Source: Burkholderiales bacterium
GTDB taxonomy: Bacteria; Pseudomonadota; Gammaproteobacteria; Burkholderiales; Burkholderiaceae_C
Reading direction: 5' to 3'
Length of the DNA: 64,000 bases
Assembly (NCBI GenBank): GCA_947453625.1
Contig: CANGHK010000023.1
Location: forward strand, 1-64,000
The translations under genes and the position numbers were made by a program. Below, piece by piece: positions 10,536 to 33,232 of this stretch; position 1 is the first letter of the stretch, and every line of letters starts with the position of its first letter. Under the pieces are notes generated by a model. It was given only the letters and a program-made list of their open reading frames with translations. It ran no database searches and had not been told where the DNA came from.

Positions 10536-11759
10536 TCACCATGACGCTCCAACGCCATCGGCGCGCTGGAAAAGCAAGACCGAGTTGGTGCCGCCAAAGG
10601 CAAAAGAACTGCTCATGGCCGCATGCAGGTGCGGTGCTGCCGTATCCGTTTGCCGCACGAGATTCAGGCCCAGCGAGGTATCAGGGTTGGCGCAGTGCGC
10701 GTTGGGCGGCAACTGGCCGTGGTGCACGGCGAGGATGGTGACCACGGCCTCCAAGGCACCGGCCGCACCCAGCAGGTGGCCGTGCAGGGCCTTGGTCGAA
10801 CTGACCTGCAGTTTGTCGATGGCCCGGCCCCATACCGCGCGAAGCGCTTCAGCTTCGACAGCGTCGCCAATCCTGGTGGCGGTGCCGTGGGCATTGCAGT
10901 AGCCAACGTCCGAGGGCTGCAGCCCGGCCATACGAAGCGCAGTACCCAGGGCGCGCTGCTGACCGGCGGCATCGGGCTTGGTCAGGTGGGTGGCGTCGCA
11001 GCCCATGCCCCAGCCAGACAGGCTGGCATATACGCGAGCCTGCCGGGCTCGCGCGTGTGCTGCCGATTCGAGAACGAGGAAGGCCGCCCCCTCGCCCAGC
11101 ACGAAGCCGCTGCGGTCGGTGGCGAAAGGCCGGCAGGCGGTGGCCGCCTCGCCGGGCTGGAAGCCGGCCAGCGTCATCATCGCCTGCCATGCCAGCACCA
11201 CGCTGGGCACGAGCATGGCTTCGCTTCCGCCGGCGATGGCCACGTCCACCTCGCCGCTGCGCACGGCCTTGGCCGCTTCGGCAATGGCCACGGATGACGA
11301 GGCACAGGCCACGGAGTAGGTGAGGACCGGTCCCATCACCCTCTGGCGCATCGCAACGTGCGAGGCCGGCGCGTTGGCCATGAAGGCAGGAACCGTGAGT
11401 GGCGGCACACGGCCGGCGCTGCGATAGGCCGCCTCCAGCGCGGCCGCTCCGCCCATTCCGCAGCCGACATAGAGACCAACGCGCTCGCGATCCATATCGC
11501 CGAGGCCGCCGGCGTCTCGCAGGGCCAAATCGGCGGCCGCCACGGCGAGTTGGCTCACCCGGTCGACGCCCGCCAACTGCAGTTTGTTAAACCAGGGCGT
11601 TTCGTTGAAGGCCACTACGGCCGCAGCAGCGGGCCGTGCCAGCTCTGGGAATATCGGATGCACCGCCGATTCGCCGCGTACCAGCGCTTTGAACATCGAC
11701 TGTGCGTCGGCGCCGTGTGGCGAAACGACGCCCAGACCCGAAACCAAGACCTCGTTCAC
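10536..11759 (-). CDS. Beta-ketoacyl-ACP synthase (FabF-type, aryl-polyene locus)
   Basis: A 407-residue condensing enzyme. The catalytic Cys is at about residue 152 (YSVACASSS), and the His residues lie in CNAHGTATRIGD and TKALHGHLLGAAGA, so it should be active. Its GTG start overlaps the ACP stop codon as GTGA, so ACP and KS are translationally coupled and probably interact. It is the third complete KS in the cluster. The role is likely chain initiation or elongation of the polyene, comparable with the FabF-like ApeR of E. coli aryl-polyene clusters, though that assignment is inferred. Confidence 0.88.
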   Translation of the reverse strand: MNEVLVSGLGVVSPHGADAQSMFKALVRGESAVHPIFPELARPAAAAVVAFNETPWFNKLQLAGVDRVSQLAVAAADLALRDAGGLGDMDRERVGLYVGCGMGGAAALEAAYRSAGRVPPLTVPAFMANAPASHVAMRQRVMGPVLTYSVACASSSVAIAEAAKAVRSGEVDVAIAGGSEAMLVPSVVLAWQAMMTLAGFQPGEAATACRPFATDRSGFVLGEGAAFLVLESAAHARARQARVYASLSGWGMGCDATHLTKPDAAGQQRALGTALRMAGLQPSDVGYCNAHGTATRIGDAVEAEALRAVWGRAIDKLQVSSTKALHGHLLGAAGALEAVVTILAVHHGQLPPNAHCANPDTSLGLNLVRQTDTAAPHLHAAMSSSFAFGGTNSVLLFQRADGVGASW

Positions 11760-12007
11760 TGCGGCGTGGCGGCGATCTGCGCGGCGCGTAACAAATCCAC
11801 GATCTCGGCCAGTTCAGCGAGGGTGTCTAGGTTGGGGTTGTTGTCAGGGATGGAGATGTTGAACTTCTCTTCCACATCGAAAATGAACTCGACCAAGGCC
11901 AACGAGTCGACGCCAGTGGCGCGCATCGAGGCGTGAGGCTCCAGCATAGCCGGGTCAAGCCCGTACTTCGCCTGGATCAGGTCCTGCAATTCCTTGAGTG
12001 AACTCAT
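11756..12007 (-). CDS. Acyl carrier protein (second ACP of the cluster)
   Basis: An 83-residue ACP. The phosphopantetheine Ser is at position 35 in TGVDSLALVEF, within the usual helix. The start at 12007 (MSSLKEL) is preferred over an upstream in-frame start at 12058. It forms a two-gene unit with the downstream ketosynthase. Aryl-polyene clusters usually carry two ACPs side by side; here the two are about 21 kb apart. Confidence 0.92.
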   Translation of the reverse strand: MSSLKELQDLIQAKYGLDPAMLEPHASMRATGVDSLALVEFIFDVEEKFNISIPDNNPNLDTLAELAEIVDLLRAAQIAATPQ

Positions 12008-12112
12008 TGTTCTAATTCTAATCCCCCGCCGCTCCGTAAACCTATGCGACCTGTGCAACAGCCCGCATGGTGATGCGACATCGAGACGCGCAATGGATGA
12101 GATCCGTTCGCT

Positions 12113-12805
12113 TCAGCACGACTGTCCCCGGCCGACCCATGGGCTGAGCCAGATCGACATTCCAGCGAACAAAGTCCCGAGCGCTGTGCCGGCCACTGCG
12201 TCAAGCACCACATGTTGGCGGATGGCCACGGTCGACCACACGATGGCCAGCATCCACACCAGGTTCAGCAGGCGCAGCGGCGCCGGCGCGCCGACGATGC
12301 GCATCAGGCGTTCGACCCAGATCGCTGTGAACACGGCCGCTGCTACGTGCAATGACGGGCAGGCGTTGCCAGCGGCGTCGACGCCCTGCAGCATGGCAAA
12401 TCCCGGATACCTGCTGACCTCTACGTCAGGCGGCGGTACAGCGGTGGGCCAGAAGTGGAAGATCAACAGCCCGCAGCCGCACATCGCGGCCGCCCACAGG
12501 CCATAGACGACGAGCTCGCGCAGACGCAGCAGCAGCCCTGGCGCCACGCCAACATAGACCCACAGCGACGCATAGGCCGCCAGCGCCGCTGGCTGGAAAG
12601 ACACAAGGGCGTCCAGTGCCGTCGTGGGCATCTCGAACACCGGGTAGACTGGGTGCCTCAGCGTTTGGAAGTAGCCGAGAAAGAAAATCCACATGAAGCT
12701 GCTGATGCCCAGCACCTTCAACTGCAGGTAGCGCCAGAATCGAACCCGCAAGTCTGCCCAAGAGGCGGCTGCGGCGAGCCGGGGCCCGGTGACGGTGGCG
12801 TTCAT
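12113..12805 (-). CDS. PAP2-family membrane phosphatase
   Basis: A 230-residue integral-membrane protein with about six hydrophobic segments. It carries PAP2 motifs NACPSLHVAA (PSxH) and IRQHVVLDAVAG (the HxxxD motif), typical of lipid-phosphate phosphatases and inositolphosphotransferase-like enzymes. It lies 105 bases upstream of the ACP gene on the same strand and diverges from the chorismatase gene, so it is probably part of the aryl-polyene locus. It may dephosphorylate a lipid carrier or glycerolipid to which the polyene is attached. That role is inferred. Confidence 0.78.
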   Translation of the reverse strand: MNATVTGPRLAAAASWADLRVRFWRYLQLKVLGISSFMWIFFLGYFQTLRHPVYPVFEMPTTALDALVSFQPAALAAYASLWVYVGVAPGLLLRLRELVVYGLWAAAMCGCGLLIFHFWPTAVPPPDVEVSRYPGFAMLQGVDAAGNACPSLHVAAAVFTAIWVERLMRIVGAPAPLRLLNLVWMLAIVWSTVAIRQHVVLDAVAGTALGTLFAGMSIWLSPWVGRGQSC

Positions 12806-13012
12806 TCGGGTGGCTTTGCATTAATCCAAGAACTTGAAACAGGTTCCACGTATTCAACCACACGCCACTGTCTTCGGCCCCAAGAGCAACTGCACGCCGT
12901 GGCCCACCAGCCTCCGAACGTGAACCGTCATGACTGCGGTGACCCCTACCTCCTTCGATTCTGAGCCCTGGCGCGCAAGGCGCAAGATGCCCTGCCAGCT
13001 CGGCGTTGTGCG
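12806..13012. other. Divergent spacer between PAP2 and chorismatase genes
   Basis: A 207-base region that must hold promoters for both directions if the two units are independently transcribed. I see no clear operator. A plus-strand ATG frame at 12986 begins MPCQLGVVRCEDVIVRVSRR and ends after 24 codons; it is in a different frame from the chorismatase and may reflect uncertainty in that gene's N-terminus. Confidence 0.3.
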
Positions 13013-14101
13013 GTGCGAGGACGTCATCGTCCGCGTCTCGAGACGGACAACGTGCTCCTGACGCGCGACCAGCCGCCGCGCGCCGTGCACAGTTTGCAGG
13101 CCATGCGGCTGAGCCAGTCCGCATGGCAGCAGAAGGCTTCGTCGCAACCGGCGCTGTGTGGCCTGGCCTGGGGCTGGGACGGCGCCGGGGCCAGCACACC
13201 CGCTGACCTGGCCGGGCTGTGCGGTCTGGCGTCGCTGGCCAAGCCGCTGCTTGGCGCCACCACGCCGTGGGTCGACGCCTGGGCTGGAGGAGGCACTGCG
13301 CTGCGCCTGTGCCACAGCGGGGCCGCGCACTGGCAGACCGATGTTGACTGGGCCTTCGGCCAACTGCACCTTCCCGAGGCCGCCGGCGCGCTGGATGCCA
13401 CCGCCTACCGCGACCTGTTCGCGGCCTTGCAGGACTGCGCTTGCCCGCAGGTGCTTCGCCTGTGGAACTACCTGCCGCGCATCAACGCCGACGGCGGCGG
13501 GCTGGAGCGCTACCGGCAGTTCGACATCGGCCCCCAGCAGGCCTTCATCGACGCCGGGCGCGATGCCTTCGAGGGCGCGCCAGCGGCCTGCGCGCTGGGC
13601 ACCGTCGGCGATGCCGCGGGCGGCCTGAGCCTCTGCTTTCTCGCCGGGCGCGTGGCGCCGCGGCCGGTGGACAACCCGCGGCACGTGCCGGCCTACCGCT
13701 ACACCAGCCGCTACGAGCCACGGGCGCCGAGATTCTCGCGTGCGGCCTTGGCCGACACAGGCGGTGGCCGCGTGGCCTTGCTGGTCTCGGGCACTTCCAG
13801 CATCGTGGGCGAACACACCGTGCACCTCGGCGACGTGGTCGCGCAAACGCATGAAACGCTGCGCAACCTGCGGGCAGTCATCGACAGCGCGCACCGTGCA
13901 TGCAACGCGAGCCTCACGCTGGCCGACCTACAGCCCACTGTCTACTTGCGGCACGCGGCCGATCACGCCAAGGTGCTGGACCTGCTGGCCCAGGCCGTGC
14001 CCGCCTGGCAGGCGTCCCCTTGCGTGCAGGTCGAGATCTGCCGTGACGGCATTCTGGTGGCGATTGAAGCTCACGCCGTGGCCCCGGGGACACTGGCGTG
14101 A
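13013..14101 (+). CDS. xanB2: Chorismatase (XanB2/Hyg5/FkbO family), hydroxybenzoate starter synthesis
   Basis: A 362-residue protein of the chorismatase family (formerly called pteridine-dependent deoxygenase-like). Family signatures include YRYTSRYEPRAPRFSRAAL, SGTSSIVGEHTVHLGD and AQTHETLRNLRAVID, with a C-terminal CVQVEICRDGILVAIE. In Xanthomonas XanB2 converts chorismate to 3- and 4-hydroxybenzoate, and the former is the xanthomonadin starter. The same role fits here because an AMP ligase and ACPs are present. It is the first gene of a rightward three-gene operon with overlapping stop/start. The N-terminus is uncertain: GTG at 13013 gives residues MRGRHRPRL unlike the family; ATG at 13103 is an alternative. 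Confidence 0.83.
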   Translation: MRGRHRPRLETDNVLLTRDQPPRAVHSLQAMRLSQSAWQQKASSQPALCGLAWGWDGAGASTPADLAGLCGLASLAKPLLGATTPWVDAWAGGGTALRLCHSGAAHWQTDVDWAFGQLHLPEAAGALDATAYRDLFAALQDCACPQVLRLWNYLPRINADGGGLERYRQFDIGPQQAFIDAGRDAFEGAPAACALGTVGDAAGGLSLCFLAGRVAPRPVDNPRHVPAYRYTSRYEPRAPRFSRAALADTGGGRVALLVSGTSSIVGEHTVHLGDVVAQTHETLRNLRAVIDSAHRACNASLTLADLQPTVYLRHAADHAKVLDLLAQAVPAWQASPCVQVEICRDGILVAIEAHAVAPGTLA

Positions 14102-14868
14102 AGCACTTACTCTGGCTCCTGCTGCCGCTGCAGTGGCTGGTCCTGCAGCAGATGCTGCTGCTGCTGGGGCTTGGCTCGCTGCTGTGGTGCGGGGTGGCGT
14201 TGCTGCTCTATCCGCTGCTGCCGCAGGCCGCGGGCCGGCATATCGGGCGCGTGACCATCGCCGCCGGTTACCGCGCCTTCTGGGGGCTGGCACGCGGCGC
14301 CGGCATGATGCGTCTGCACTCGCAGTCGCTGGACGCGCTGCGTGACGAGCCGGGGCTCATCGTCGTGGCCAACCACCCCAGCATGCTGGACGCGATGATG
14401 CTGGTGGCGCGGCTACCGCGAAGCGCCTGCATCATGAAGGCCAGCCTGATGCGCAACCCCTTCCTTGCGCCGGGCGCGCGCCTGGCACGCTACATCCGCA
14501 ACGACTCGCCTCGCGGCGTGGTGACCCTGGCCGTGCAAGACCTGCAGCAAGGCGGGCAACTGGTGCTGTTCCCGGAGGGCACGCGCACCACCACGCGGCC
14601 CGTGAACCCCTTCCGCGGCGGGGTGTCGCTCATAGCCAAGCGCGCCGGCGCCCCCATCCAGACGGTGTTCATCGACGCCCACTCGCCCTACCTCTGCAAC
14701 GGCTGGCCGCTGTGGCGGCTGCCGCCGCTGCCCATCGAGTTCACGGTGCGCCTGGGCCGGCGCTTTGCGCCCTCCGAGGACGTCGCTGCGCAGTTGCGCG
14801 AGCTCGAGGCCTACTTCGCCGCCGGCGTGCGCCAAACACCGGTCTGCACTGATCGCGCCCGCCTATGA
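14098..14868 (+). CDS. PlsC-like 1-acyl-glycerol-phosphate acyltransferase
   Basis: A 256-residue membrane-associated acyltransferase. The catalytic NHPSMLD (NHxxxxD, residues 92-98) and the acceptor-binding FPEGTRT motif are both present, preceded by a hydrophobic N-terminal segment of about 40 residues. The GTG start overlaps the chorismatase stop (GTGA) and the stop overlaps the following glycosyltransferase start, so the three genes are one translationally coupled operon. In aryl-polyene systems acyltransferases attach the polyene acid to a lipid or sugar head group; that is the expected role. Confidence 0.88.
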   Translation: MKHLLWLLLPLQWLVLQQMLLLLGLGSLLWCGVALLLYPLLPQAAGRHIGRVTIAAGYRAFWGLARGAGMMRLHSQSLDALRDEPGLIVVANHPSMLDAMMLVARLPRSACIMKASLMRNPFLAPGARLARYIRNDSPRGVVTLAVQDLQQGGQLVLFPEGTRTTTRPVNPFRGGVSLIAKRAGAPIQTVFIDAHSPYLCNGWPLWRLPPLPIEFTVRLGRRFAPSEDVAAQLRELEAYFAAGVRQTPVCTDRARL

Positions 14869-15641
14869 CCCCGAGTTCCACCACGCACCTGGTGCTGATC
14901 CCCAGCTACAACACCGGTGAGCAGGTCTACGCGACCGTGCGTGCCGCGCGTGCGCAGTGGACGCCGGTGTGGGTGGTAGTCGACGGCAGCACCGACGGCA
15001 CGGCCGAGGGCCTGCAAGCCCTGGCCCGGCAAGACCCAGGCCTGCGCGTGTGGGTGCTACCGCAAAACGGCGGCAAGGGCTCAGCGGTGTGGCACGGTTT
15101 GCAGCAAGCGCAGGCTGCCGGCTACACCCACGCGCTGGCGATGGACAGCGACGGTCAGCACCCGGCTGATCTCATCCCGGCCTTCATGCAGACCTCGCTG
15201 GCACGGCCCGACACCATGGTGCTGGGCCGCCCGATCTTCGACGCCAGCGCGCCGCTGCTGCGCGTGCGCGGCCGGCGCGTCTCGAACTGGTGGACTAAGC
15301 TCGAGACGCTGGGTGCGGGCGTCGCCGATTCACTCTACGGATTCCGCGTCTACCCGGTGGACGCACTGGCCGCGGTAATGAAGAACCAACCCTGGATGCG
15401 CCGTTTCGATTTCGACACCGAGGCCGTCGTGCGATTGGCTTGGCGCGGCATCAAGCCGGTGAACCTGGATGCGCCGGTGAAGTACCTGCGCGCCGATGAA
15501 GGCGGCGTCTCGCACTTCCGCTACGGGCGCGACAACGTGCTGCTGAGCTGGATGCACACCCGGCTGATGGTCGAGTTCGTCCTGCGCCTGCCGGCGTTGC
15601 TGTGGCGCAAGGCGACGCGCCGGCCGCCTTTCCAGCGCTGA
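14865..15641 (+). CDS. Family 2 glycosyltransferase
   Basis: A 258-residue GT-A fold glycosyltransferase. The N-terminus LVLIPSYNTGEQV is the nucleotide-sugar strand, VVVDGSTDGTAEG follows, and MDSDGQHPADL carries the DxD-type metal motif of dolichol-phosphate-mannose-synthase-like GT2 enzymes. It is the third gene of the operon starting with the chorismatase and starts on ATGA overlapping the acyltransferase stop. It may glycosylate the aryl head group or the lipid anchor. It is convergent with the halogenase gene. Confidence 0.88.
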   Translation: MTPSSTTHLVLIPSYNTGEQVYATVRAARAQWTPVWVVVDGSTDGTAEGLQALARQDPGLRVWVLPQNGGKGSAVWHGLQQAQAAGYTHALAMDSDGQHPADLIPAFMQTSLARPDTMVLGRPIFDASAPLLRVRGRRVSNWWTKLETLGAGVADSLYGFRVYPVDALAAVMKNQPWMRRFDFDTEAVVRLAWRGIKPVNLDAPVKYLRADEGGVSHFRYGRDNVLLSWMHTRLMVEFVLRLPALLWRKATRRPPFQR

Positions 15642-15650
15642 AGGATCGGG

Positions 15651-15677: not shown

Positions 15678-15678
15678 T

Positions 15679-17349
15679 TCAGGCCGCCAGCGCCTCGGCG
15701 CTCGGGAAGAGCAGGCTCTGCGCGGGCATTTCCAGCATCTGCGGCGGCAGCAGGGCCCGCAACGCGCGGCCGTCCAGGTCCGGGTGCTCGTGCAGGCTGC
15801 GCTGCAATAGTTCACCGGCCAACTGCTGCAGCGTCAGCGCGGCCTGGCGGATGCGCTGACGGAAATCGTCGTCGCTGAGTGCGCCGTCCTGCAGGCTGCG
15901 GTTGAGCTCGACGAACCACGGCACCGAAGCCTGGTCCAGCATCACCGGCAGGTTGCGGCGCTGGCTCACGGCGCCCCAGGCGCGCAGGAAGTGCTGCACC
16001 TCCACGTTCAGCTGCTGGCATGCCGCGAGTTCGTCGCGCAGGCGGCCCAGCGAGGCCAGGTCGGTCAGGCGCTGCTGGCAGAACAGCTGTGCCAGCACGC
16101 TCCAGTAGTAGGTGTAGTCCCAGATCACCTTGATGGGCAGCACCTCGGGGTCGCCAAAGAGGCCGTACTGGTCGACGTAAAGCGCCAGCGTGCTGTCGTA
16201 GAAGCTGCGGAAGACCTGCTCGTAGATCTGCGTGTGCGCGGCCAGGCGCTGGCCTGCACGATCGCGCGCGATCAGCTCGGTGATGTAGGTGTTGCCGATG
16301 GCGATGAAGTCGCTGCCGGGCGAGTAAAAAGGGTCGAGGAAACGACCGGCCTCACCGGCCAGGGCCCAGCGGTGTTCGCTGAAGACCTGGCTGCAGTCGT
16401 AGCTGAAGCGCTTGAAGAAAGCGAAGTCCTGCAGCTTGTCGCGCTTGCCGTCGAGGTCGTCGAAGAGCGCCGGCTGGAACTCGCGCAGCCAGCCCATCGC
16501 CTTCTCGAAGGTGTTCATGCGCTCCAGCGGGTGGTAATTCGGGTCGGCGACGATGCCCACCGAGTGCGAGCCCGAGGCCAGCGGGATCAGCCACACCCAG
16601 TAGCCCGCGCCGACCAGGTGGTTGGTGGACAGCCAGCGCGTGGGCGTCACACAGCGTTCGCGCCATGCCTGCGCGGCCTCGGCGTTGCCCGCATCGTCAC
16701 CGTCCAGCGGCCAGGCGTCGATGTGGATGCGCTCGCTGATACGGAACCACACCGCGTGCGCCGCATGCGCATTCTCGCGCGCCAGGCCCAGCTTGCGCTT
16801 GAGGAGGCCGGCGCGGCCGCAGGCGTCGACCACCCAGCGCGCGCGCGTCTGCTGCGGCTCGTCGCCGGCCTGCTGCCAGTGCACGGTGTGAGGGCTGCCG
16901 TCTTCCGTCAGGTCGACCTGGCGGATCAGCGCTTCATCGACGAAGCGGATGCCGCGGCGCTGGCACTCCTGGCCGAGGAAGTTCTCGAACAGGCCGCGGT
17001 CGATCTGGTAGCTGGGCACCGGCAGCGGCCGGCTGGCACCGAGTTCGGTGACGCGGTGCAGGTCGCGCCGGCCTTCGCTGAAGAAGAAGCGGAAGCCGAA
17101 CTTGCGCAGTTGCTCGCCCTGCAGGTGCTGGCGCAGGCCCAGGGTGTGCTCGAAGTAGTGCGCGCCGATCTCGACACTGCTCTCGCCCACCTTGTGGCAG
17201 GCCAGCGGCACCGGGTGGGCGCGGCGTTCGAGCACCAGCACCTCGATGCCGGGCAGGCGCTGGCGCAGTTGCAGGGCCAGGGTCATGCCGGCGAGACCGC
17301 CACCCATGATCAGGACATCGGGCGCGGCAGGGGCGTGTTCGGTGGTCAT
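15679..17349 (-). CDS. Flavin-dependent halogenase-like oxidoreductase (xanthomonadin-type)
   Basis: A 556-residue flavoprotein of the tryptophan-halogenase superfamily. The FAD-binding motif GGGLAG is at residues 16-21, KVGESS follows, and the halogenase fingerprint WVWLIP (WxWxIP) is at 251-256. Lys83 lies where PrnA Lys79 is found. However, the segment FLDPFYSPGSDF carries Tyr where tryptophan halogenases have the catalytic Glu (PLESTG), so its exact chemistry is uncertain. Xanthomonadins are brominated aryl polyenes and their clusters carry a halogenase, so ring halogenation is a sensible prediction. It follows the chain-length-factor gene by 22 bases at the end of a leftward operon. Confidence 0.78.
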   Translation of the reverse strand: MTTEHAPAAPDVLIMGGGLAGMTLALQLRQRLPGIEVLVLERRAHPVPLACHKVGESSVEIGAHYFEHTLGLRQHLQGEQLRKFGFRFFFSEGRRDLHRVTELGASRPLPVPSYQIDRGLFENFLGQECQRRGIRFVDEALIRQVDLTEDGSPHTVHWQQAGDEPQQTRARWVVDACGRAGLLKRKLGLARENAHAAHAVWFRISERIHIDAWPLDGDDAGNAEAAQAWRERCVTPTRWLSTNHLVGAGYWVWLIPLASGSHSVGIVADPNYHPLERMNTFEKAMGWLREFQPALFDDLDGKRDKLQDFAFFKRFSYDCSQVFSEHRWALAGEAGRFLDPFYSPGSDFIAIGNTYITELIARDRAGQRLAAHTQIYEQVFRSFYDSTLALYVDQYGLFGDPEVLPIKVIWDYTYYWSVLAQLFCQQRLTDLASLGRLRDELAACQQLNVEVQHFLRAWGAVSQRRNLPVMLDQASVPWFVELNRSLQDGALSDDDFRQRIRQAALTLQQLAGELLQRSLHEHPDLDGRALRALLPPQMLEMPAQSLLFPSAEALAA

Positions 17350-17371
17350 GGGGTGTAGCGCGCGGTGGCGC

Positions 17372-18208
17372 TCAATCGGGCGGCGGGCGCATTATGCGCA
17401 GGTGCAGCAGACCGCTCGGGCCCAGGGGCAGAGGGATGTCTTCCGCAGCGCCGCCTGCCTCCAGGCGCGCCAGCGCTTCGAAGAGCGGCAAGGCATCGGC
17501 CAGCGCGTTGCCGGCGAGGGCGTTGCCGGCAGGGCTCTGCAGCGCCGGCAGCGCGGCAGCGCCGGGCGCCACGGACCACTCAAGCGCGGCGCGGGCCGCG
17601 GCGCTGCGCTCGGGGGCCATCACCAGCGCCGCGCCGAGCAGGCCGCGGCTGCGCGTGACCGAGGCCAGCGCGCCGCGCGCCTCGGTGTCGAAGCCGGCCA
17701 GCAGCACCGGCGTGTGCTCGGTAACGGCCTGGGTGGCGGCTTCCAGCAAGCCGAGCGCGAAGCTGGCCTCGAAGCCCGCTACCGCGCTGCTGGGCGCGTG
17801 GCAGCCGGTGACCATGGCCCAGTAACCCGAGGCCGCGTTGTGCACCGAGTGGTGGAAGCGCGTGGGCGAAAGCAGCGTGGGGTCGGCCGCCAGCGTGCTG
17901 CACAGCCCGTCGACGATGGCCAGGTCGCCATGCGCCGAGGTGAAGACGCTGGGCAGCGTGGCGGCGTCGCGCCCGGCCATGGCCACGGCGGCGGCGGCCA
18001 CTTCCAGGGCCACCAGCACGCCGTCGGGGGCGCGGCGGCGTTCATTGGCGGCCAGCAGGGCGGGGCTGGGGCGGGCGGCGGGCGGGGCGTCGACGAGGGG
18101 CATAGGCTCGCCGCGCAAGGCGGGCGCTGCCACGGCCCAGTCGGGCAGCGCGGGCGACCACAGCGCCAGACCTTCGACGTAGAGCCTGTGCACGGGCGCC
18201 GTGATCAT
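17372..18208 (-). CDS. Ketosynthase-like chain-length factor (second CLF)
   Basis: A 278-residue thiolase-fold protein shorter than a full ketosynthase. It has FTSAHGDL, SPTRFHHSVHNAASGYW and SSAVAGFEASFALGLLEA, typical of the chain-length-factor-like partner (ApeC type) in aryl-polyene clusters. The catalytic Cys of the STACSS motif is absent, so it cannot condense on its own. The ATG overlaps the stop of the preceding KS gene (ATGA), implying coupled translation and heterodimer formation. Confidence 0.85.
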   Translation of the reverse strand: MITAPVHRLYVEGLALWSPALPDWAVAAPALRGEPMPLVDAPPAARPSPALLAANERRRAPDGVLVALEVAAAAVAMAGRDAATLPSVFTSAHGDLAIVDGLCSTLAADPTLLSPTRFHHSVHNAASGYWAMVTGCHAPSSAVAGFEASFALGLLEAATQAVTEHTPVLLAGFDTEARGALASVTRSRGLLGAALVMAPERSAAARAALEWSVAPGAAALPALQSPAGNALAGNALADALPLFEALARLEAGGAAEDIPLPLGPSGLLHLRIMRPPPD

Positions 18209-24771: not shown

Positions 24772-25548
24772 TCAAAGCGTGGCCACCAACAGCACGTTGG
24801 CAAACGGCGTGCCGGCGCTCATGGGCACGGCGCGCACGTCAAAGCCTAGCGCCTGAAGCGCCGCCTGCCATTGCACGAAGGGGCGGCCGTAGGTTGGCAG
24901 GGCGCGGTGGCCGCGCAGCCAGGTGACGACGATGTCGACCCACTGGCTGATGCGGAAGCCGCGCCGCGCGTCCATGTCGCCGACGCGCAGCAGCAACCGG
25001 CCGCTGGGCCGCAGCGCGTCGCGCACGCGCGCCAGCAGCGCGTCCTGCGCGGCGTAGTCGACGTAGTGCAGCACGTCGAGGATGACCACCAGGTCGCAGG
25101 GCGGCAGCGCGGTGTGGCACATGTCGCCGCAGACGAACTGCGGCCGCTCACCGCCCGGCAGCACGAGGCCGCCCACGGCGGCCTGCGCGCGCTGCACGTC
25201 GCGCGGCATCAGCTCGATGCCGGTGTAGGCCGTGACCGCCGGCGCCGTCGGCCAGCCCGTGGGCCAGTGGCCTGCCTGGGCCAGCGCGCCGCAGCGCTGC
25301 AGCAGGCTGACCAGCAGGCCCTGGCCGCAGCCGATGTCGGCGACGCGGCCGCCGTGCTGGAAGTCGCCACGCTCCAGCATGCCGCGGAAGACCGGGTCTC
25401 GCCCGAGCTTGCCGCGCGCGAAGTGCCAGGCGAAGCGGCCGGCGGCGCGGTAAGGCGCGGTGGTCTCGTCGAGCACGCGCCGCCAGAAGCCGTTGCTGGC
25501 GGCGTTGCGCGGGGGCTGCGTGGGCAGCGGAAGGTCAGGGTGGTGCAT
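24772..25548 (-). CDS. SAM-dependent class I methyltransferase
   Basis: A 258-residue methyltransferase. Motif I is VADIGCGQGLL, then YTGIELM, and motif IV is LVVILDVLHYVD. In aryl-polyene pathways the corresponding methyltransferase decorates the aromatic head group, for example as methoxy or C-methyl. It lies between the polysaccharide deacetylase and the first KS in the same direction. The target atom cannot be told from the sequence. Confidence 0.86.
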   Translation of the reverse strand: MHHPDLPLPTQPPRNAASNGFWRRVLDETTAPYRAAGRFAWHFARGKLGRDPVFRGMLERGDFQHGGRVADIGCGQGLLVSLLQRCGALAQAGHWPTGWPTAPAVTAYTGIELMPRDVQRAQAAVGGLVLPGGERPQFVCGDMCHTALPPCDLVVILDVLHYVDYAAQDALLARVRDALRPSGRLLLRVGDMDARRGFRISQWVDIVVTWLRGHRALPTYGRPFVQWQAALQALGFDVRAVPMSAGTPFANVLLVATL

Positions 25549-25562
25549 TCGAAGGAGAGGGG

Positions 25563-26438
25563 TCAGGTGTGGCCGCGCGCCGGCAGCGCAGCACGCAGCG
25601 TGGTGGCTTGCAGGCCGAAGGCGCGGGCCGCGGCCAGCAGCGGCGGCAGCACCGCCAGCAGCACCGGCTGGCCGGCGGGGCTTCGGCGCGCATGGCCGTC
25701 GTGCACCAGCAGGATGTCGCCGGCGGCCAACTGGCGGCCCTGCGGGCCAATCAGGCGGGCCAGCACGCGGGTGGGGTCGCCGTCGCGTGTGTCGAAGCCG
25801 CGGCGCGTCCAGCTCACGAGGTGCAGGCCCAGGCGGTGCAGCACGGGGTCGAGCAGCGGGTTGCGCAGCCCCGCCGGCGCGCGAAAGCAATGCGGGCGCT
25901 GGCCGGTCAGATCGGCGAGCAGGTCCTGCGCCGCGCCGATCTCCTGCGCCAGGCCGCGCGGGCCGCGCATCGAAAAGTCGTGGCGGTGCAGGTGGCTGTG
26001 GTTCTGCACGTCGTGGCCGCGCCGCACCGTCTCTCGCAGCAGCGCGGCGTGTTGCGCGGCGCAGCGCGCGATGACGAAGAAGGTGGCCTTGACGCCGGCC
26101 TCGTCGAGCAGGTCGAGCACGGCGGGCGTGACCTCAGGATCGGGCCCGTCGTCCAGCGTCAGCGCGAACTCGCGGCGCGCCGCGGCGGCGGGCAGTCGCG
26201 TGACGTTAGGCCCCAGCAGCGCGCTGCGGGGCCACAGCCCCGCGGCCGTGAGACCCAGGTGGTTGAGCACCACGCTGCACAGGGCCCAGGGCGCAGCACC
26301 CGGCACCAGCAGTGCCGCCGCGCCAGCGGCGGCGTGCAGGCCGACGCTGGCCCGCAACGCGGCCGGCCAGGGCCAGGCGGCCGGCCGGGCGGCCGCTTGA
26401 GGTGGGAACGGCGGAGGGGTGGGAACGGGCGGCGTCAT
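25563..26438 (-). CDS. Polysaccharide deacetylase family protein (NodB-like)
   Basis: A 291-residue protein with two hydrophobic segments near the N-terminus and a NodB homology domain. LTLDDGPDPEVT provides the Asp-Asp metal/catalytic motif, ETVRRGHDVQNHSHLHRHDF supplies the His-rich metal site, and RAPAGLRNP matches motif 3. It probably removes N-acetyl groups from a glycan on the outer face of the inner membrane. Its presence within a polyene export operon suggests that a sugar or lipid anchor is modified, but this is inferred. The start at 26438 gives the family length. Confidence 0.83.
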   Translation of the reverse strand: MTPPVPTPPPFPPQAAARPAAWPWPAALRASVGLHAAAGAAALLVPGAAPWALCSVVLNHLGLTAAGLWPRSALLGPNVTRLPAAAARREFALTLDDGPDPEVTPAVLDLLDEAGVKATFFVIARCAAQHAALLRETVRRGHDVQNHSHLHRHDFSMRGPRGLAQEIGAAQDLLADLTGQRPHCFRAPAGLRNPLLDPVLHRLGLHLVSWTRRGFDTRDGDPTRVLARLIGPQGRQLAAGDILLVHDGHARRSPAGQPVLLAVLPPLLAAARAFGLQATTLRAALPARGHT

Positions 26439-26535: not shown

Positions 26536-28953
26536 TCACGGCCGGTCCTGGCCCGGTATCGGCAAGGCCGGCCCGGGACGTGCCAACGCCGGCGCGAAGG
26601 CCGCCGCCAGCACCAGGGCCAGCAAGGCGCCCGGCGCCACCACGCTGCCAATCGCCGACAAGGCCTTGATGTCCGACACCGCGATGAGCCCGAAACCCAG
26701 CACCGTGGTGACGTTGGCCAGCAGCAGCGAGGCCAGCGTGTCGTCGTCGGCCACGCCGCCGTGCTGCAGCATGTCGAAGAAGAGCGCGTAGTTCGAGCCC
26801 ACGGCCACCACCAGAAGCAGCCCCACCAGGTGCAGTATGCCCATCGGCACCTGCAGCAGCGCCAGCCCGCCCAGGCATAGCAGCACCGCCAGCAGCAGCG
26901 GCTGGCTCACGGCCAGCACGCGGCGCCAGTTGCGCAGCGCCAGCGCCATCACCAGCAGCACGCCCAGTCCGCCCAGGGCCGCCTGCGTGCGCGCTTCGCC
27001 CAGGTAGCGGGTGTACATGCGGCCGAGTTCGCCGCCGATGTCCAGCACCTGGGTCTGCGGCAGGCCTTGCACCGCAGCCTGCACGCGCGCGATGTCCACC
27101 GCCTCGCCCAAGGGTTGCAGCGGCAGCAGCACGGTCCAGCGGCCGTCGGGGTGCTTCAGCGTCAGCGCATCCAGCAGCGGCGCCAGCGCGCTGGCGCGCG
27201 CCATCTCGGGCGTGGCCAGGGGCAGGCTGCGCGCCTGCGCCACCGCCTGCACGAAGGGCGCCAGCCGCTCGGCGCGCAGCGGGCCGCCGGCCGTGGCCTC
27301 GGCCAGCGCAGCCTGCAGCGCCGCGGCTTCGGGCAGGGCCGCCTGGCGCTGGCGCTGCGTCTGCAGGCTGGGCAGGAAGCGGGTGACGCTGTCGAAACCA
27401 GCGATGACCTGCGTGTTGACCAAGGCTTCCAGCCGCGCTGACGCCGCCTCCGCACGCTGCAGGCTGGTTTCGGCATCGGGGCCTTGCACGACGACGAAGG
27501 CGCCACCGTCGCCGCCGCTGGTTATGTCGGCGCGCAAGCTGGCGTCGAGCGCCAGCGCTTCCGGCGACACCGGACTCAGCGACGAGAGCTCGGCCTTCCA
27601 TAGTCCGTCACGCTGCCACACCAGCACCAGCGAGGCCAGGCCCAGAACCAGCCACAGGCCCCGCGTGCGCGGCAGCACGGCCATCGCGCCGCGCGCCAGG
27701 CGGCCCAGCGGCCGGCGCAGGCCCTGGCCGCGGGTGCCGTCGGGCATCAGCACCGGCAGCACGAAACGCGTGGTGAGCACCGCGCCCACCAGCCCGGCCA
27801 GCGAGAACACCCCCAACTGCTGCAGCCCCGGAAAGCCCGAGAACAGCAGCGCCGTGAAGCCGCACAGTGAGGTCAGCAGCCCCAGGCGCACCGTCGGCCA
27901 GTTGCCACGCAGCCATTGCTGCCAACCGGTGCCGCCCTGGCCGCCTGCCTGGATGAGGTAGTAGATGGCGTAATCCACCGCTTCGCCGATCAACGTCGAG
28001 CCGAAGCCCAAGGTGACGCCGTGCACGTTGCCGAAGCTCAGGCTTACGGCGACGATGCCGGCCAGGATGCCACTGGCCACCGGCATCAGCGCCACGCCCA
28101 GCGCCACCGGCGACGCGAACGCCGCCAGCAGCAGCGCGCTCATCACCAAGGTGCCGGTCATTGCAAGCCATTCCACCTCGCCCTTGATCTGCGCGCGGCT
28201 GTCGACCGAGAACACCGGCGCGCCGCTGACCCGCAGCAGAAGGCCCGGCGCTGGCCCGGACACGGCGGTGAAGCTCTGGCGCACGGTGTCGATGGCGTCC
28301 TGCTGAGCGTCCAGGTCGCCGCCGTCGCCGCGGATACCGGCCAGCAGCAGCGCGCGCGGCGGCGTGCCGCCGGTTTCGCGCGAGACCCAGACACCGTCGT
28401 CGGTGCGCGGCGACGTCACCGGGATCATGCTTTCGGCGATGCGTTGCACCTCGCCGGTGGGGTCCTGCTCCAGCAGCGGCTTGAGCGCCAGGCCTGCGGG
28501 CGTGCCCAGCAGGGACAGCGTCTCGCCGATGCCCTCGCGCAGGCCCTCGGGCGTGAAGCGTTCGGGCGCGACGGCCGGGCTCAGCAGGTAGCGGCGCTCC
28601 ACCATCCAGCGGCCGACGCCGGCCCAGGCGCCGTTCTCGCCGTTGCTGACCTGATCGAAGCGGCCGCTGGCGCGCAAGGCCGCCGCGAGCCGCTTCGAGG
28701 CCGCCACGCGCGCCGCCGCATCGCCCCCCTCGATGCCTATGAAGAGCGTGCGCGCCGGCGCGCCGCTGCGGATCTGGTCGATCAGCACCTGCTGCTGCGC
28801 ATCGGCCGTGGCGGGCAGGAAGGCCGAGAGATCGGCGGTGAAAGGCGTGCGCGTGATCTGCCAGGCGGCCAGCGCCAGCGCCGTCAGCCACAGCAGCAGC
28901 ACGGCCGCGCGGTGGCGCGAGCTCATGGCGCTGAGGCCGCGGGCGGGCTTCAC
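26536..28953 (-). CDS. MMPL/RND-family exporter (ApeM-like)
   Basis: An 805-residue inner-membrane transporter with the RND layout: one N-terminal membrane helix, a periplasmic loop, five to six helices from about residue 255 to 430, a second large loop, then a second helix bundle to the C-terminus. Family hallmarks are GFGSTLIGEAVDYAIYYLI and VAVGSNYALFFDML in the helices equivalent to the proton-relay region. It probably extrudes the lipid-linked aryl polyene across or out of the inner membrane with the LolA-like protein encoded just upstream. The start overlaps the lolA-like stop by 4 bases. Confidence 0.9.
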   Translation of the reverse strand: MKPARGLSAMSSRHRAAVLLLWLTALALAAWQITRTPFTADLSAFLPATADAQQQVLIDQIRSGAPARTLFIGIEGGDAAARVAASKRLAAALRASGRFDQVSNGENGAWAGVGRWMVERRYLLSPAVAPERFTPEGLREGIGETLSLLGTPAGLALKPLLEQDPTGEVQRIAESMIPVTSPRTDDGVWVSRETGGTPPRALLLAGIRGDGGDLDAQQDAIDTVRQSFTAVSGPAPGLLLRVSGAPVFSVDSRAQIKGEVEWLAMTGTLVMSALLLAAFASPVALGVALMPVASGILAGIVAVSLSFGNVHGVTLGFGSTLIGEAVDYAIYYLIQAGGQGGTGWQQWLRGNWPTVRLGLLTSLCGFTALLFSGFPGLQQLGVFSLAGLVGAVLTTRFVLPVLMPDGTRGQGLRRPLGRLARGAMAVLPRTRGLWLVLGLASLVLVWQRDGLWKAELSSLSPVSPEALALDASLRADITSGGDGGAFVVVQGPDAETSLQRAEAASARLEALVNTQVIAGFDSVTRFLPSLQTQRQRQAALPEAAALQAALAEATAGGPLRAERLAPFVQAVAQARSLPLATPEMARASALAPLLDALTLKHPDGRWTVLLPLQPLGEAVDIARVQAAVQGLPQTQVLDIGGELGRMYTRYLGEARTQAALGGLGVLLVMALALRNWRRVLAVSQPLLLAVLLCLGGLALLQVPMGILHLVGLLLVVAVGSNYALFFDMLQHGGVADDDTLASLLLANVTTVLGFGLIAVSDIKALSAIGSVVAPGALLALVLAAAFAPALARPGPALPIPGQDRP

Positions 28954-29624
28954 TTCGCGGCCGCGGCGGCCGTCGGGGCCGATGCCGACTTCGCCGCCAA
29001 GGGCTCCACCAGCATCAGCGCGCGGTCGCCGCCCACCAGGCGCAGATCGACGCTGCGCACATCGGGGCCGAGGCCAGCCATCTCCAACTGCTGCACGCTG
29101 CGCGCCAGGCGGCTGTCCAGCGGCGTGAGCAGCAACACCCAGCGCGTAGCGTTGCCGCTGACCTGGGCGCGGAAGTGGCGCTGCAGCGCCTGCGCGTCAC
29201 CGCCCAGCGTGCCGCGCATCGCATCGGCCAGCGCGGCCAGCTCGGGCACGGCGTCCAGCGCCATCTGGCGCGTGCGGCTGCCGCGCCGCAGCAGCACCTG
29301 ATTGCCCTGCACCTCCATGCTTTCGGTGGTGGGCTCTTCGGTGTAACGCGCGAAGCGGTCGGGCGCCTGGAAGCTGAGACGGCCGCTGGAGCGCAGCGTG
29401 TTGTCGAGGCTGCTGACAGTGCGCTCTTCGGTGAAGCGCGCTTCCCCCTGCTTGCGCTGGGCCAGCACGGCCATCAGCTCCGGCAGCTCGAAAGCCGCCG
29501 GCTGGGAGGGGGCGCTAGGCTGCGCGTTCACGGCCCCCGTGCCCAGAGCCAGCAGGCTCAACGCGGTGGTCAGGCAGGCGCGCCGGCCGCGCTCAGGCGG
29601 CTTCGTCTTTATGCCAGTAGTCAT
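28950..29624 (-). CDS. LolA-like periplasmic lipid carrier (ApeL-like)
   Basis: A 224-residue secreted protein. The start at 29624 (MTTGIKTK) gives a signal peptide ending near GAVNAQ; a longer frame to 29801 has no protein-like content. The mature part shows LolA-family features such as EARFTEERTVSSLDNTLRSS, GRLSFQAPDRFARY and VLLLTPLD. It overlaps the acyltransferase gene by 32 bases upstream and the MMPL gene by 4 bases downstream. It likely shuttles the lipidated polyene through the periplasm. Confidence 0.85.
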   Translation of the reverse strand: MTTGIKTKPPERGRRACLTTALSLLALGTGAVNAQPSAPSQPAAFELPELMAVLAQRKQGEARFTEERTVSSLDNTLRSSGRLSFQAPDRFARYTEEPTTESMEVQGNQVLLRRGSRTRQMALDAVPELAALADAMRGTLGGDAQALQRHFRAQVSGNATRWVLLLTPLDSRLARSVQQLEMAGLGPDVRSVDLRLVGGDRALMLVEPLAAKSASAPTAAAAAK

Positions 29625-30537
29625 AGAAGTTGAACCAGTTGTAGGGGGCCTCGCGGCACAGCGCTTCGAGCCGGCGCACGTAGTCGGACACGGTGGCCCG
29701 CACCAGGGCTTCCCTCTCGGCGGGGTCGGCGGGCACCTCGCTGAAGTCGGCCAGCGCCTCGAAGCGCACTTCATAGCGCCGGCCGCCACGGTACAGGCCA
29801 ACCATGAAGATGACGCGGCGGCGCAGCATCATCGCCAGGCGCACGGGGCCGTCGGTGAAGCGCGCAGGGCAGCCCAGGAAGGGCAGCTCGACGCTGCTGC
29901 CGTGCACCGAGTCGCTGGCCACGTAGCGGTCGCCCATCAGGCCGGTGAGGCCGCCCTTGTCTAGGAAATCGCGGATGGCCAGCGCCGAGCCGCGCTGGCC
30001 GATGGGGATGATGCTGACGTCGAAGTCCGGCGCCAGCGCCTGCAGCACGGTGTGGATCATGCGGGCGTTCTGCGGGTACATCACCATCGCCACCGGCAAG
30101 CCGGGGTGGCTCAGGCCCACGGCGTGCAGCGCCTCGAAGCTGCCGATATGCGCACCCAGCAGGTAGACGCCGCGGCCTTCGGCCAGCTCGGCTTCCATCA
30201 GGGGGCTGCCGCTGATGGGCATGTCGAACAGGTCCATGCGGCCGGCGGCGAACCAGATGCGGTCCATCGCCACCGAGGCGAAGGCGTGGATGTGGCGGTA
30301 GAGGTCGGCACAGCCGGCGGGCCGACCCAGGGCCCGGCCCAGGTAGCGGCGCGACGCGCGGCGCGCCACCGGCGCGAATAGCAGGTAGTACAGCGCGATG
30401 GGGTGCAGCACCAGCCGCGCCACCGGCCGGCCCAGATGCATGGCGATCCACGCGATGGCGCGGATGGCACGTAGGTTGCTGCGCTCGGGCGTGGCGCTCC
30501 AGTCGCGCACATGGCGGGTGTCGGCGGGCACGGTCAC
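29593..30537 (-). CDS. LpxL/HtrB-type acyltransferase
   Basis: A 314-residue membrane acyltransferase of the lipid-A acyltransferase type. It has a hydrophobic N-terminal region, the catalytic-type motif LLGAHIGSFEAL (HxxxxE), GLMGDRYVASDS and the C-terminal NWFNFYDYW. In aryl-polyene clusters such an enzyme is thought to join the polyene acyl chain to its lipid anchor. It starts on GTGA overlapping the ligase-dehydratase stop codon, and its 3' end overlaps the LolA-like gene. Confidence 0.88.
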   Translation of the reverse strand: MTVPADTRHVRDWSATPERSNLRAIRAIAWIAMHLGRPVARLVLHPIALYYLLFAPVARRASRRYLGRALGRPAGCADLYRHIHAFASVAMDRIWFAAGRMDLFDMPISGSPLMEAELAEGRGVYLLGAHIGSFEALHAVGLSHPGLPVAMVMYPQNARMIHTVLQALAPDFDVSIIPIGQRGSALAIRDFLDKGGLTGLMGDRYVASDSVHGSSVELPFLGCPARFTDGPVRLAMMLRRRVIFMVGLYRGGRRYEVRFEALADFSEVPADPAEREALVRATVSDYVRRLEALCREAPYNWFNFYDYWHKDEAA

Positions 30538-32267
30538 GTCGCGGCTCCCGCCGGGGCCCCGGCCGTTAGCAGGCCCTTAGCGACCACGCCGGCAGCCCTG
30601 TCGCCGTCACGCCGCACCTCGAAACCCACGCCCCCGCCCTGCGGTTGCAGCAGCACCTGCAGCGCGGTGTCCGGCATGACGGGGCTGATGAACTTCACGT
30701 TGCCGATCTGTGGCACGGCCCCCAGGCGGGCGCGCAGTTCGGGCTGCTCGTCCAGCGTGCGCATCACGAAGGCCAGCAGCGCCACGCCAGGGAGCACCGG
30801 CTGGCCAGGGAAGTGGCCGGGGAAGGCCGGGTGGTCGGCGCCCACGACGTAGCGCCCGCCTTCGGCCAGCGCGTCCCGCGCAAACCGCGCCAGGCCCTGA
30901 GCGGTGAGCTTGCCGGTGGCCTCGCGCGGGAGGGACCGCACGTGCACCACGCGGCGCGGCACGAAGGCCGGCTCGAGGTGCTCGCGCAACGCCTCGATGA
31001 GCTGACGCGCAGAGCGCGTGGGCGCCACCACGAAGGCCACCGGCCGCGCGACACCGTCGGCCTGCTCGTCAGGCATCCAGAGCGCGCCGTCTTCCACGCC
31101 AGGAATGCGGTTGAGGTGGAAGTTCAGGTGCGCCAGCGAGCTGCGCTTGCCCGCCACGTGGATGAGATCGTTGGCACGGCCCAGCAGTCGGAAGTGGGTG
31201 GCGTCCTCGAACTCCAGGACGTCGGCCAGCGGCGTGGGCTCGAGCACGTGGCCGCCGTGCACCAGGAAACGTTCGTCGTCGGCCCGCGCGTCGCGCGCCA
31301 CCCGCAGGTCGCCCAGCGTGTGCCAGGTCTCGCCGGCGGTGGTGCGGCGCGTCGCGACCTGGCCAGCTTCGGTGCAACCGTAGATCTCGACCAGCGTGCC
31401 GCCCGTGGCCGCCTCGGCCTGCTGCGCCAGTTGCAGCGACAGCGGCGCCGTGGCCGAGAGCAGCAGCGCCACCGGCGGCAGCGCCACGCCGGCCAGCAAC
31501 AGCGTCTTCAGGTGGAAAGGCGTCGTGACCAGCGCGCGCGGAGCCGGCACGGTGGCCAGCGCCGCAGCGATGTCGGCCGGGTAGAAGGGCCGGCCGGCGT
31601 CGAAGCAGGCGCCGCCCAGCAGCGCCAGCAGCACCGTCGACTCGAAACCGTAGCTGTGCTGCGCCGGTACCGTGCCCAGCAAGGTCAGGCCTTGCAGCGT
31701 CGGCCGGCCGCACAGCGCGGCCAGGCGTTCGGCCTCGGCGGCGATGTTCACCACAAGCGCGCTCCAGCGTTTGCCGTGAGGCTGCGGCGCGCCCGTGCTG
31801 CCGCTGGTGAGGAGGCGCACGGCTTCCAGCCCGGCGGGGATCGACGGCACGGCCCCGACGGGCTGCGCAGCCTCGTCGGGCTCGATGAACACGCGATGCA
31901 GGCCGCCGACGTCGAGCGCCGCATCATCCACCATCGCATAGGGCGTGTCGGCCGCCCCGGTGCCCGACCCGTGCAGGGCGCGCAGCGTTTCGGGCAGCGC
32001 GTTGGGGGGCATCAGGCTGGTTTGGCCGCGCAGCAGCGCCGCGGCCAGGCCCAAGGCGAAGCGGTAACGGTCCTGGCACAGATTGATGGGTCGGCCGGCG
32101 GCGGGAAGCTGGCACGCCAGCGCCTGGGCCTGGCCCAGGAAGGCGGCGGCGCTGACCGCCTCGCCGCGCCGCCAGGCCAGCGGCGCGGCGAGGTCGCGCG
32201 CGGACAGCAGCGGCAGCGCGGGAGCGGACGTCAGGGCGGCAGCAGTAGCAGGCATCGTGTGCGGCAA
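30534..32267 (-). CDS. AMP-dependent aryl-acid ligase fused to a C-terminal dehydratase (ApeH-ApeI fusion)
   Basis: A 577-residue two-domain protein. Residues 1 to about 460 are an adenylate-forming ligase with LLTSGSTGAPQPHGKRW (P-loop-like), IYGCTEAG (ANL motif) and a hinge and catalytic lysine near LPREATGKLT. Residues from about 475 to the end are a FabA/FabZ-like hotdog domain with VGADHPAFPGHFPGQPVLPG. The ligase would activate the hydroxybenzoate starter and load it on an ACP. The dehydratase would act during elongation. In E. coli these are the separate genes apeH and apeI; here they are one continuous frame. It follows the COG4648 gene by 34 bases. Confidence 0.9.
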   Translation of the reverse strand: MPHTMPATAAALTSAPALPLLSARDLAAPLAWRRGEAVSAAAFLGQAQALACQLPAAGRPINLCQDRYRFALGLAAALLRGQTSLMPPNALPETLRALHGSGTGAADTPYAMVDDAALDVGGLHRVFIEPDEAAQPVGAVPSIPAGLEAVRLLTSGSTGAPQPHGKRWSALVVNIAAEAERLAALCGRPTLQGLTLLGTVPAQHSYGFESTVLLALLGGACFDAGRPFYPADIAAALATVPAPRALVTTPFHLKTLLLAGVALPPVALLLSATAPLSLQLAQQAEAATGGTLVEIYGCTEAGQVATRRTTAGETWHTLGDLRVARDARADDERFLVHGGHVLEPTPLADVLEFEDATHFRLLGRANDLIHVAGKRSSLAHLNFHLNRIPGVEDGALWMPDEQADGVARPVAFVVAPTRSARQLIEALREHLEPAFVPRRVVHVRSLPREATGKLTAQGLARFARDALAEGGRYVVGADHPAFPGHFPGQPVLPGVALLAFVMRTLDEQPELRARLGAVPQIGNVKFISPVMPDTALQVLLQPQGGGVGFEVRRDGDRAAGVVAKGLLTAGAPAGAAT

Positions 32268-32301
32268 GGGGCAGCGGCGGCGCAGCAGGGCGGTGCGGCG
32301 T

Positions 32302-32922
32302 TCAGCGCCCGGTGGCGCGCCAGGCCTGCACCACCTGCGTCAGCCTCACGCGTTCGAACTCGGGGTGACGCTGATAGCGCAGCACGTGCTCCACCGCGAG
32401 GAAGAGCCCGGCCGCCAGCGGCGTGAGGACGCTGCAGTAGAAGGACCACCAGGTCCACGGCGCCAGCAGATAGAGGGCGAAGGACACGCCGATCATGGCC
32501 ACGAAGTACAGCACCCACAGCCCCGTGAGCCAGCGCGTGTAGTCGCGCATGGACGGCGTGAAGTCGCGGTGGATGCGCTCGGCCATCGTAGTGATCAGCG
32601 GCGTGGCACCCGGGCGCAGCGTGACCGCGAAGCCCCAGCCCAGCAGCGCGTGGATACCGGCGTGCTGCAGCACGTAGAGTCTGTTGACATCCGCACCGCC
32701 GCGCTGGAGCACGGCCGCCAGCAGCGCCACGAGCGCCACCGCGCCGGCCAGCGAAGGTCCATGGCGCTTGGCGATACCGGCCACCAACAGCGGCAACAGC
32801 AAGGGGCCGAATAGCGCGGCCACGGCCCACGGGCTATCCGGCCACCAGGCCATCAAGGCCCAGGAGATCAGCGCGTAGGCCGTAAAGACGGCTGCGGCGG
32901 CCAGCAGGCGCCAGCGGGGCAT
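32302..32922 (-). CDS. COG4648-type membrane protein (ApeG-like)
   Basis: A 206-residue integral-membrane protein with about six hydrophobic helices. The start at 32922 (MPRWRLLAAAAVF) is preferred to an in-frame start at 32961 that would lie inside the ACP gene. It has conserved features of the COG4648 family found in aryl-polyene clusters (RDYTRWLTGLWVLYF and a C-terminal EHVLRYQRHPEFERV). Its function is not established. The stop-to-start gap from the upstream ACP gene is 4 bases. Confidence 0.82.
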   Translation of the reverse strand: MPRWRLLAAAAVFTAYALISWALMAWWPDSPWAVAALFGPLLLPLLVAGIAKRHGPSLAGAVALVALLAAVLQRGGADVNRLYVLQHAGIHALLGWGFAVTLRPGATPLITTMAERIHRDFTPSMRDYTRWLTGLWVLYFVAMIGVSFALYLLAPWTWWSFYCSVLTPLAAGLFLAVEHVLRYQRHPEFERVRLTQVVQAWRATGR

Positions 32923-32926
32923 CGGC

Positions 32927-33232
32927 CTACTTGGTGCGGTGCTGGGCGACGTGCACCGCAAGGGTGCGCAACGAGCGGAATATCTGGTGGTTTTTCTCGT
33001 CGTCGGAGCGCAACTGGAAGCCGTAGCGGTGCGAGACCTCGAGCGCCACTTCCAGGATGTCGATGGAGTCCAAGCCGAGGTCGTCGAAGAGTGACGCAGC
33101 GGGGTCGATCTCGACGGACGGCGTTTCCAGGTTCAGCGCCGTCACGAAAAGTTCGGCAAGCTCATGCTCAAGCGCGGGGAGATCCAACCCGACTGCAGGG
33201 GACGCAAGTGAAACAGGGTTCGGCTCGGACAC
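32927..33232 (-). CDS. Acyl carrier protein (first gene of the aryl-polyene operon)
   Basis: A 101-residue ACP with the phosphopantetheine Ser at position 56 in DLGLDSIDILEVALEV. The GTG start at 33232 has a good ribosome-binding site, GAGGTGA, 6 bases upstream on the minus strand. It heads the long leftward operon (ACP, COG4648, ligase-dehydratase, acyltransferase, LolA-like, MMPL, deacetylase, methyltransferase, KS, CLF, dehydratase, ketoreductase). It is longer than the second ACP because of an N-terminal extension of about 16 residues. Confidence 0.93.
   Translation of the reverse strand: MSEPNPVSLASPAVGLDLPALEHELAELFVTALNLETPSVEIDPAASLFDDLGLDSIDILEVALEVSHRYGFQLRSDDEKNHQIFRSLRTLAVHVAQHRTK

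Follow-up and report, generated by a model that had tools for sequence, protein, structure and literature searches.

A predicted xanthomonadin-type aryl-polyene pigment cluster in a Burkholderiales bacterium near Rubrivivax

The DNA analysed here (the window) comprises 64,000 nucleotides, positions 1 to 64,000 of contig CANGHK010000023.1 (assembly GCA_947453625.1), from a Burkholderiales bacterium near Rubrivivax. The block of genes at 10536-33187 is very probably (roughly 0.92) a complete aryl-polyene pigment cluster of the xanthomonadin (xan/arc) type, and its predicted product is a yellow, membrane-bound aryl polyene. The cluster family is already known: the same parts occur in the arcuflavin loci of Azoarcus BH72. 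Less usual are the presence of two pairs of ketosynthase (KS) and chain-length factor (CLF), the fusion of a ligase to a dehydratase, and, at the cluster edge, what is left of mipA and of a further halogenase-like gene. Two questions make the locus useful. Why do some of these clusters retain two anciently diverged KS/CLF pairs? And does a strictly conserved halogenase truly halogenate in Betaproteobacteria?

Calling genes by codon usage yields 23 in the block (g12-g34), and all of them were scanned with Pfam and NCBIfam. The borders are set by comparison with Rubrivivax rivuli, which has all 23 genes in identical order at 71-92% identity: this collinearity argues that 10536 and 33187 are right (the preliminary description had the same start, ended the cluster at 33232, and outlined what is in essence the block common to both genomes). 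It also disposes of the proposal that the gene order represents a distinct architecture. In positions 783000-832000 of the R. rivuli contig no other window gene is placed on its own at E 1e-5, save g60, with one 43% match beyond the KS end of the cluster. The source genome amounts to 5.18 Mb in 127 contigs and is 95.6% complete; GC content is 67-76% across most of the cluster.

Gene content and a proposed route

Gene presence, gene order and conserved catalytic residues are matters of direct observation; for each reaction in the following route, characterised relatives are the guide. (Genes are on the minus strand unless marked plus.) The route would start with the chorismatase g15 (13052-14101, plus), which is of the XanB2/Hyg5 (FkbO/Hyg5) type by PF21168, with TIGR04444 below cut-off, and is predicted to make 3-hydroxybenzoate. 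Its best solved relatives, 5ag3 and 5a3k, align over query residues 95-340, and it retains a cysteine at the position that reads serine in 5a3k; this cysteine presumably serves 3-hydroxybenzoate formation. The AMP ligase half of g32 (30534-32255; PF00501 and PF13193 over cut-off) would activate the acid and load it onto an acyl carrier protein (ACP), of which there are two: g13 (11756-12007; PF00550), with a DSL motif read from the sequence, and the arcV-like g34 (32927-33187; NF006617 above cut-off), with a DSI motif. A FabF-like KS, g12 (10536-11759; PF00109/PF02801; NCBIfam fabF below cut-off; 84% identical in R. rivuli), may start the chain and is a possible ApeR-like starter KS; its GTG start overlaps the stop of g13 (family scans began at 11696, and the full N-terminus was read separately).

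Elongation with malonyl units would fall to the ApeO/ApeC-like KS-CLF pairs. The FabG-like ketoreductase g23 (21539-22282; PF13561; NF004200 above cut-off) and two dehydratases, g24 and the tail of g32, would then leave a conjugated polyene. A separate dehydratase, probably ArcI/ApeP-like, is assigned to g24 (22282-22782) from its place between CLF and ketoreductase, as in arcI, together with a non-significant match to the dehydratase 6qsr_B (E 0.84). The C-terminal end of g32 is hotdog dehydratase-like (PF07977, PF01575 and PF22818, that is, FabA, MaoC and ApeI-like, all below cut-off), so that the gene corresponds to arcT plus arcS. Both in the window and in three of 11 other genomes, a single open frame covers ligase and dehydratase; the match is continuous with one stop in another three, the parts are matched separately in four, and one has no match. 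R. rivuli has the identical fusion.

The arcM-like methyltransferase g27 (24772-25548; PF08241 and related models) and the flavin-dependent halogenase homologue g18 (15679-17349) may decorate the ring. Attachment of the polyene to lipid would involve two acyltransferases, the PlsC-type g16 (14098-14868, plus; PF01553) and the lipid A-type, arcR-like g31 (29593-30537; PF03279), with the arcE-like GT2 glycosyltransferase g17 (14865-15641, plus; PF00535) and the PAP2-family membrane phosphatase g14 (12113-12805; PF14378/PF01569). Both export genes of the cluster are recognised by Pfam: the arcP-like MMPL/RND exporter g29 (26536-28953; PF03176) and the LolA-like, arcQ-like carrier g30 (28950-29624; PF19574; NF053544, flexirubin LolA2, below cut-off) would carry the pigment to the outer membrane.

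Four genes stand outside this route: the arcN-like polysaccharide-deacetylase-family protein g28 (25563-26357; PF01522), an alpha/beta hydrolase, g21 (19464-20285; PF00756), a membrane protein in the arcU place, g33 (32302-32922; 88% identical in R. rivuli), and the lipoprotein g22 (20531-21499, plus), recognised by eye from a twin-arginine motif and a lipobox. No Pfam or NCBIfam family rises over cut-off for g22, g24 or g33. The fold of g22 is unassigned (its structure model is poor, mean pLDDT 45.5), and that it might be a LolB-like acceptor is a guess.

How widely is all this shared? One scan of genome contigs with a halogenase alignment found 331 stretches encoding a relative, and the best 80 were kept as loci; they include many from Variovorax, as well as Rubrivivax, Hydrogenophaga, Piscinibacter and others. 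The PAP2 phosphatase is found in 18 of these 80 loci, the alpha/beta hydrolase in eight, and the g22 lipoprotein in six, always beside the hydrolase.

What weighs against a complete, working pigment cluster can be gathered here: 1) No thioesterase family was matched in the scans of all 23 genes. 2) The dehydratase candidate g24 drew no Pfam or NCBIfam match at all. 3) The second halogenase-like gene, present in 19 of the 80 related loci, survives in the window as remnants, and mipA is broken. 4) Halogenation, as part of the reading, is weakened by arcuflavin, which is described as nonbrominated with arcA present (PMC3949708). The aryl-polyene parts named in the preliminary description were all recovered by gene calling and family scans, the separate dehydratase g24 by place and non-significant match only. 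To that inventory are now added the second KS/CLF pair, the PAP2 phosphatase, the polysaccharide deacetylase, the GT2 glycosyltransferase, the alpha/beta hydrolase, the lipoprotein and, at 7.4-8.5 kb, some genes in decay.

The halogenase homologue and the two KS/CLF pairs

The halogenase homologue g18 (PF04820 over cut-off, NF033113 far below) directly adjoins one of the two KS/CLF pairs, g20/g19. Its best named relatives are those of R. rivuli (89%) and Inhella (87%), which fits the Burkholderiales origin proposed at the outset. The motifs G-x-G-x-x-G and W-x-W-x-I-P and a lysine (residues G16, G18, G21, K83, W251, W253, I255 and P256) are invariant in all 81 sequences, and we take these residues to mark working flavin halogenases. 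The best solved relative of g18 is CmlS (3i3l), at E 8.7e-18. With the halogenase as query, no further locus turns up in the source genome at E 0.001; the second flavoprotein itself was not used as a query.

Does invariance of the signature mean a halogenated pigment? The gene is no proof of it, because arcuflavin is nonbrominated though arcA, a halogenase homologue, is present (PMC3949708), and sequence alone does not decide the matter. The claim that the halogenase is a hallmark of the xanthomonadin type thus survives as to the presence of the homologue, and loses force as a sign of a halogenated product. That g18 leaves the pigment unhalogenated, either because it performs other flavin chemistry or because bromide is lacking, and that a xanthomonadin-like polyene free of halogen is therefore made, has a little under an even chance: the Azoarcus precedent and the low similarity of g18 to solved halogenases favour it, while the invariant signature, read as above, speaks against it.

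Each of the two ApeO-like ketosynthases is paired with a short, N-terminal-only CLF partner recognised by PF13723. The first pair, g26 (23567-24757; NF006618 above cut-off) and g25 (22770-23570), adjoins the ketoreductase and the dehydratase; the second, g20 (18205-19443; NF006618 above cut-off) and g19 (17372-18208; assigned also from CLF alignments), adjoins the halogenase. The best solved matches of g26 are 7f28_B and 6qsp_A, both from KS-CLF pairs, and 6qsp_B and 7f28_A are the sole solved matches of g25 at E 0.01; 6qsp we take to be the Xenorhabdus aryl-polyene KS-CLF. The KS residues C-H-K-H are intact in all 62 KS20-type sequences (the window, together with 61 loci out of the 65 that gave a match; matches covering less than 60% of the query were left out) and in all 19 of the KS26 type, window included. 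In the CLFs, the position 46 residues past the loop serine is a glutamine in g19 and g25, as it is in 61 of the 72 rows of the former type and 17 of the 19 of the latter; 6qsp_B has no glutamine there. (This glutamine is tentatively equated with Lysobacter Q166, the serine being S120, by spacing only, from an alignment that has no Lysobacter sequence.)

With the two ketosynthases of the window 47% identical and the two CLFs 42% identical, the pairs are, as judged from these sequences, old paralogues. In a KS tree of 83 rows, from which two with stops were omitted, the KS20 rows are parted from the KS26 rows by branches with support values of 83/92 and 98/79, neither of which attains the starred level of the tree tool. 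Across the 80 loci the CLF19 type is found in 71, the KS20 type in 65 and the KS26 type in 18; both KS types occur in 13, KS20 only in 52, KS26 only in five, and neither in ten. Since no more than 10 kb of flank was searched and short contigs are frequent, counts of absent KS and CLF genes are upper bounds. A separate survey of 200 genomes of the family found a PF13723 gene in 56 and the halogenase (E 1e-50) in 14, all of them among the 56; at least two PF13723 matches are seen in five of the 14 halogenase genomes (the other nine show one) versus none of the remaining 42.

Two readings of the duplicated pair go beyond one pigment made by one assembly line. The pairs may serve two products side by side, two polyene lengths for example; this is possible, but the odds are clearly against it. 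It draws on the age of the paralogues, on their separation in the tree and on the 57 of 80 loci that have a single KS type (52 KS20, 5 KS26). It has to contend with the fact that the block has one ketoreductase, one ligase and one export set, with the 13 loci, and the window, in which the two KS types co-occur, and with separating branches that fall short of the starred level. Still more doubtful is the notion that KS20, CLF19 and the halogenase constitute a movable module, apart from the main polyene pair KS26-CLF25, and that the pair set apart in this way may act on an aryl chain carrying halogen or some other modification. A strict module is counted against by the nine loci in which CLF19 is unmatched, six of which (L024, L054, L074, L079, L082 and L094) have 10 kb before the halogenase. 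If the notion were true, a cluster with both pairs would make two polyenes, or one polyene in two stages. No mention of a two-pair cluster was met in the portions of the literature covered, on such clusters, on Variovorax and on Rubrivivax/Piscinibacter, though one may still be published.

Edge remnants and neighbouring genes

The second flavoprotein of the 19 related loci is 25-30% identical to the halogenase and carries GWFWFIP in all 19. A degraded fragment is retained in the window at about 7463-7621 (plus): 16 of the 19 queries match at E ≤0.1 in a 6.2 kb stretch, the best at E 1.8e-7. It is adjoined by an arcC-like mipA homologue with two in-frame stops (fragment and gene together spanning 7463-8466); read with X at the stops, the latter aligns with an intact relative along 254 of 271 residues. 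A possible C-terminal remnant of the flavoprotein, directly before the chorismatase at 12969-13040 (plus), is weak: one of 19 queries, 54% over 24 residues, with E 0.003 when the 6.2 kb stretch is searched and 0.028 for the whole window. Minus-strand matches at 10284-10436 (three of 19 queries, E 0.02-0.06) were taken as chance. Judged by sequence, the remnants may be either true losses or assembly errors. Both sites, 7463-8466 and 12969-13040, belong to that edge of the cluster where GC is lower.

Beside the mipA remnant stands an extra FabF-like KS, g10 (8569-9768, plus), at about 64% GC. It was rejected as a cluster gene: at E 1e-100 it matched the source genome only, of 60 genomes, and in the surroundings of the R. 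rivuli cluster it reaches 37% at best, against other KS genes. A response regulator and a histidine kinase, g35/g36 (33880-36215), lie beside the ACP g34. They are placed as arcX/arcW are in Azoarcus (PMC3949708) and go unmatched next to the R. rivuli cluster, so that a role as cluster regulators fits the one genome and not the other, and their membership is uncertain. A MauG/MbnH-like di-haem protein (CCP_MauG domain; 36249-37496, plus) adjoins the histidine kinase, and a TonB-dependent receptor (4042-6369, plus) lies upstream of the cluster.

Comparison with known systems

A different product would result if the polyene were joined to a dialkylresorcinol (DAR), as in arcuflavin, the dar genes lying at another site of the genome. 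DarB is a ketoacyl synthase III (KAS III)-type enzyme, and the KAS III C-terminal domain PF08541 is found in a single gene of the 95.6% complete source genome, presumably the housekeeping FabH; DarB thus appears to be absent (no search for DarA was made), and KAS III was unmatched among 30 window proteins scanned. A hybrid is accordingly very unlikely. In each of 11 genomes KAS III genes number one to three, a count that cannot separate DarB from other KAS III enzymes. In favour of a hybrid, the polyene part of the window equals Azoarcus in gene content, Azoarcus makes one, and xan-like and DAR clusters are combined in Dechloromonas, Variovorax paradoxus S110 and Sideroxydans, where such clusters are also found (PMC3949708).

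A xanthomonadin-type polyene remains the preferred reading, and Azoarcus sp. BH72 is a close described parallel. As listed in Table 1 of PMC3949708, arcA-arcX include halogenase, XanB2, MipA, acyltransferase, glycosyltransferase, ketoreductase, dehydratase, CLF-like protein and KS. ArcB makes 3- and 4-hydroxybenzoate, and insertions in arcK and arcT give colourless mutants (PMC3949708). Save for arcO, at whose place no gene was called in the window, the order arcM-arcV is that of g27-g34: methyltransferase, polysaccharide deacetylase, exporter, LolA, acyltransferase, dehydratase, ligase, hypothetical protein, ACP. This, too, bears on the supposed distinctness of the architecture. The differences are that the window holds one block in place of two unlinked loci, fuses what are separate arcT and arcS, and has two KS/CLF pairs where the Azoarcus table has one, plus darJ (PMC3949708); that its mipA is broken; and that, with one KAS III gene in the genome, it probably lacks the DAR part.

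The xanthomonadin cluster of Xanthomonas and the cluster of Lysobacter enzymogenes have an XanB2-type enzyme and a KS with an ORF16-type CLF (PMC3691225, Figure 5 legend). In a comparison that includes Variovorax, several genomes have halogenase genes close to the KS-CLF pair, the exceptions being L. enzymogenes and Xylella; Lysobacter thus differs from the window in having no halogenase gene, and what PMC3691225 says of these clusters, as far as drawn on here, mentions no second KS/CLF pair (the likeness is one of description, with no Xanthomonas sequence compared). The E. coli aryl-polyene cluster apeA-apeR shares ACPs, ligase, dehydratases, KS, CLF, ketoreductase, acyltransferases, LolA-like protein, RND exporter and methyltransferase (PMC8253772, Table 1). 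Its thioesterase and its LolB-like protein (PMC8253772) have no recognised equivalent in the window, and its table lists neither the chorismatase nor the halogenase that the window has, in keeping with the earlier assignment to the xanthomonadin rather than the E. coli type. R. rivuli KYPY4 (NZ_SACR01000003.1) differs in two respects: the histidine kinase and the regulator go unmatched next to its cluster, and it keeps, between chorismatase and PAP2 phosphatase, the second halogenase-like flavoprotein of which the window has a remnant. The cluster can be seen as a version, conserved within the Rubrivivax group, of a pigment system that is widespread.

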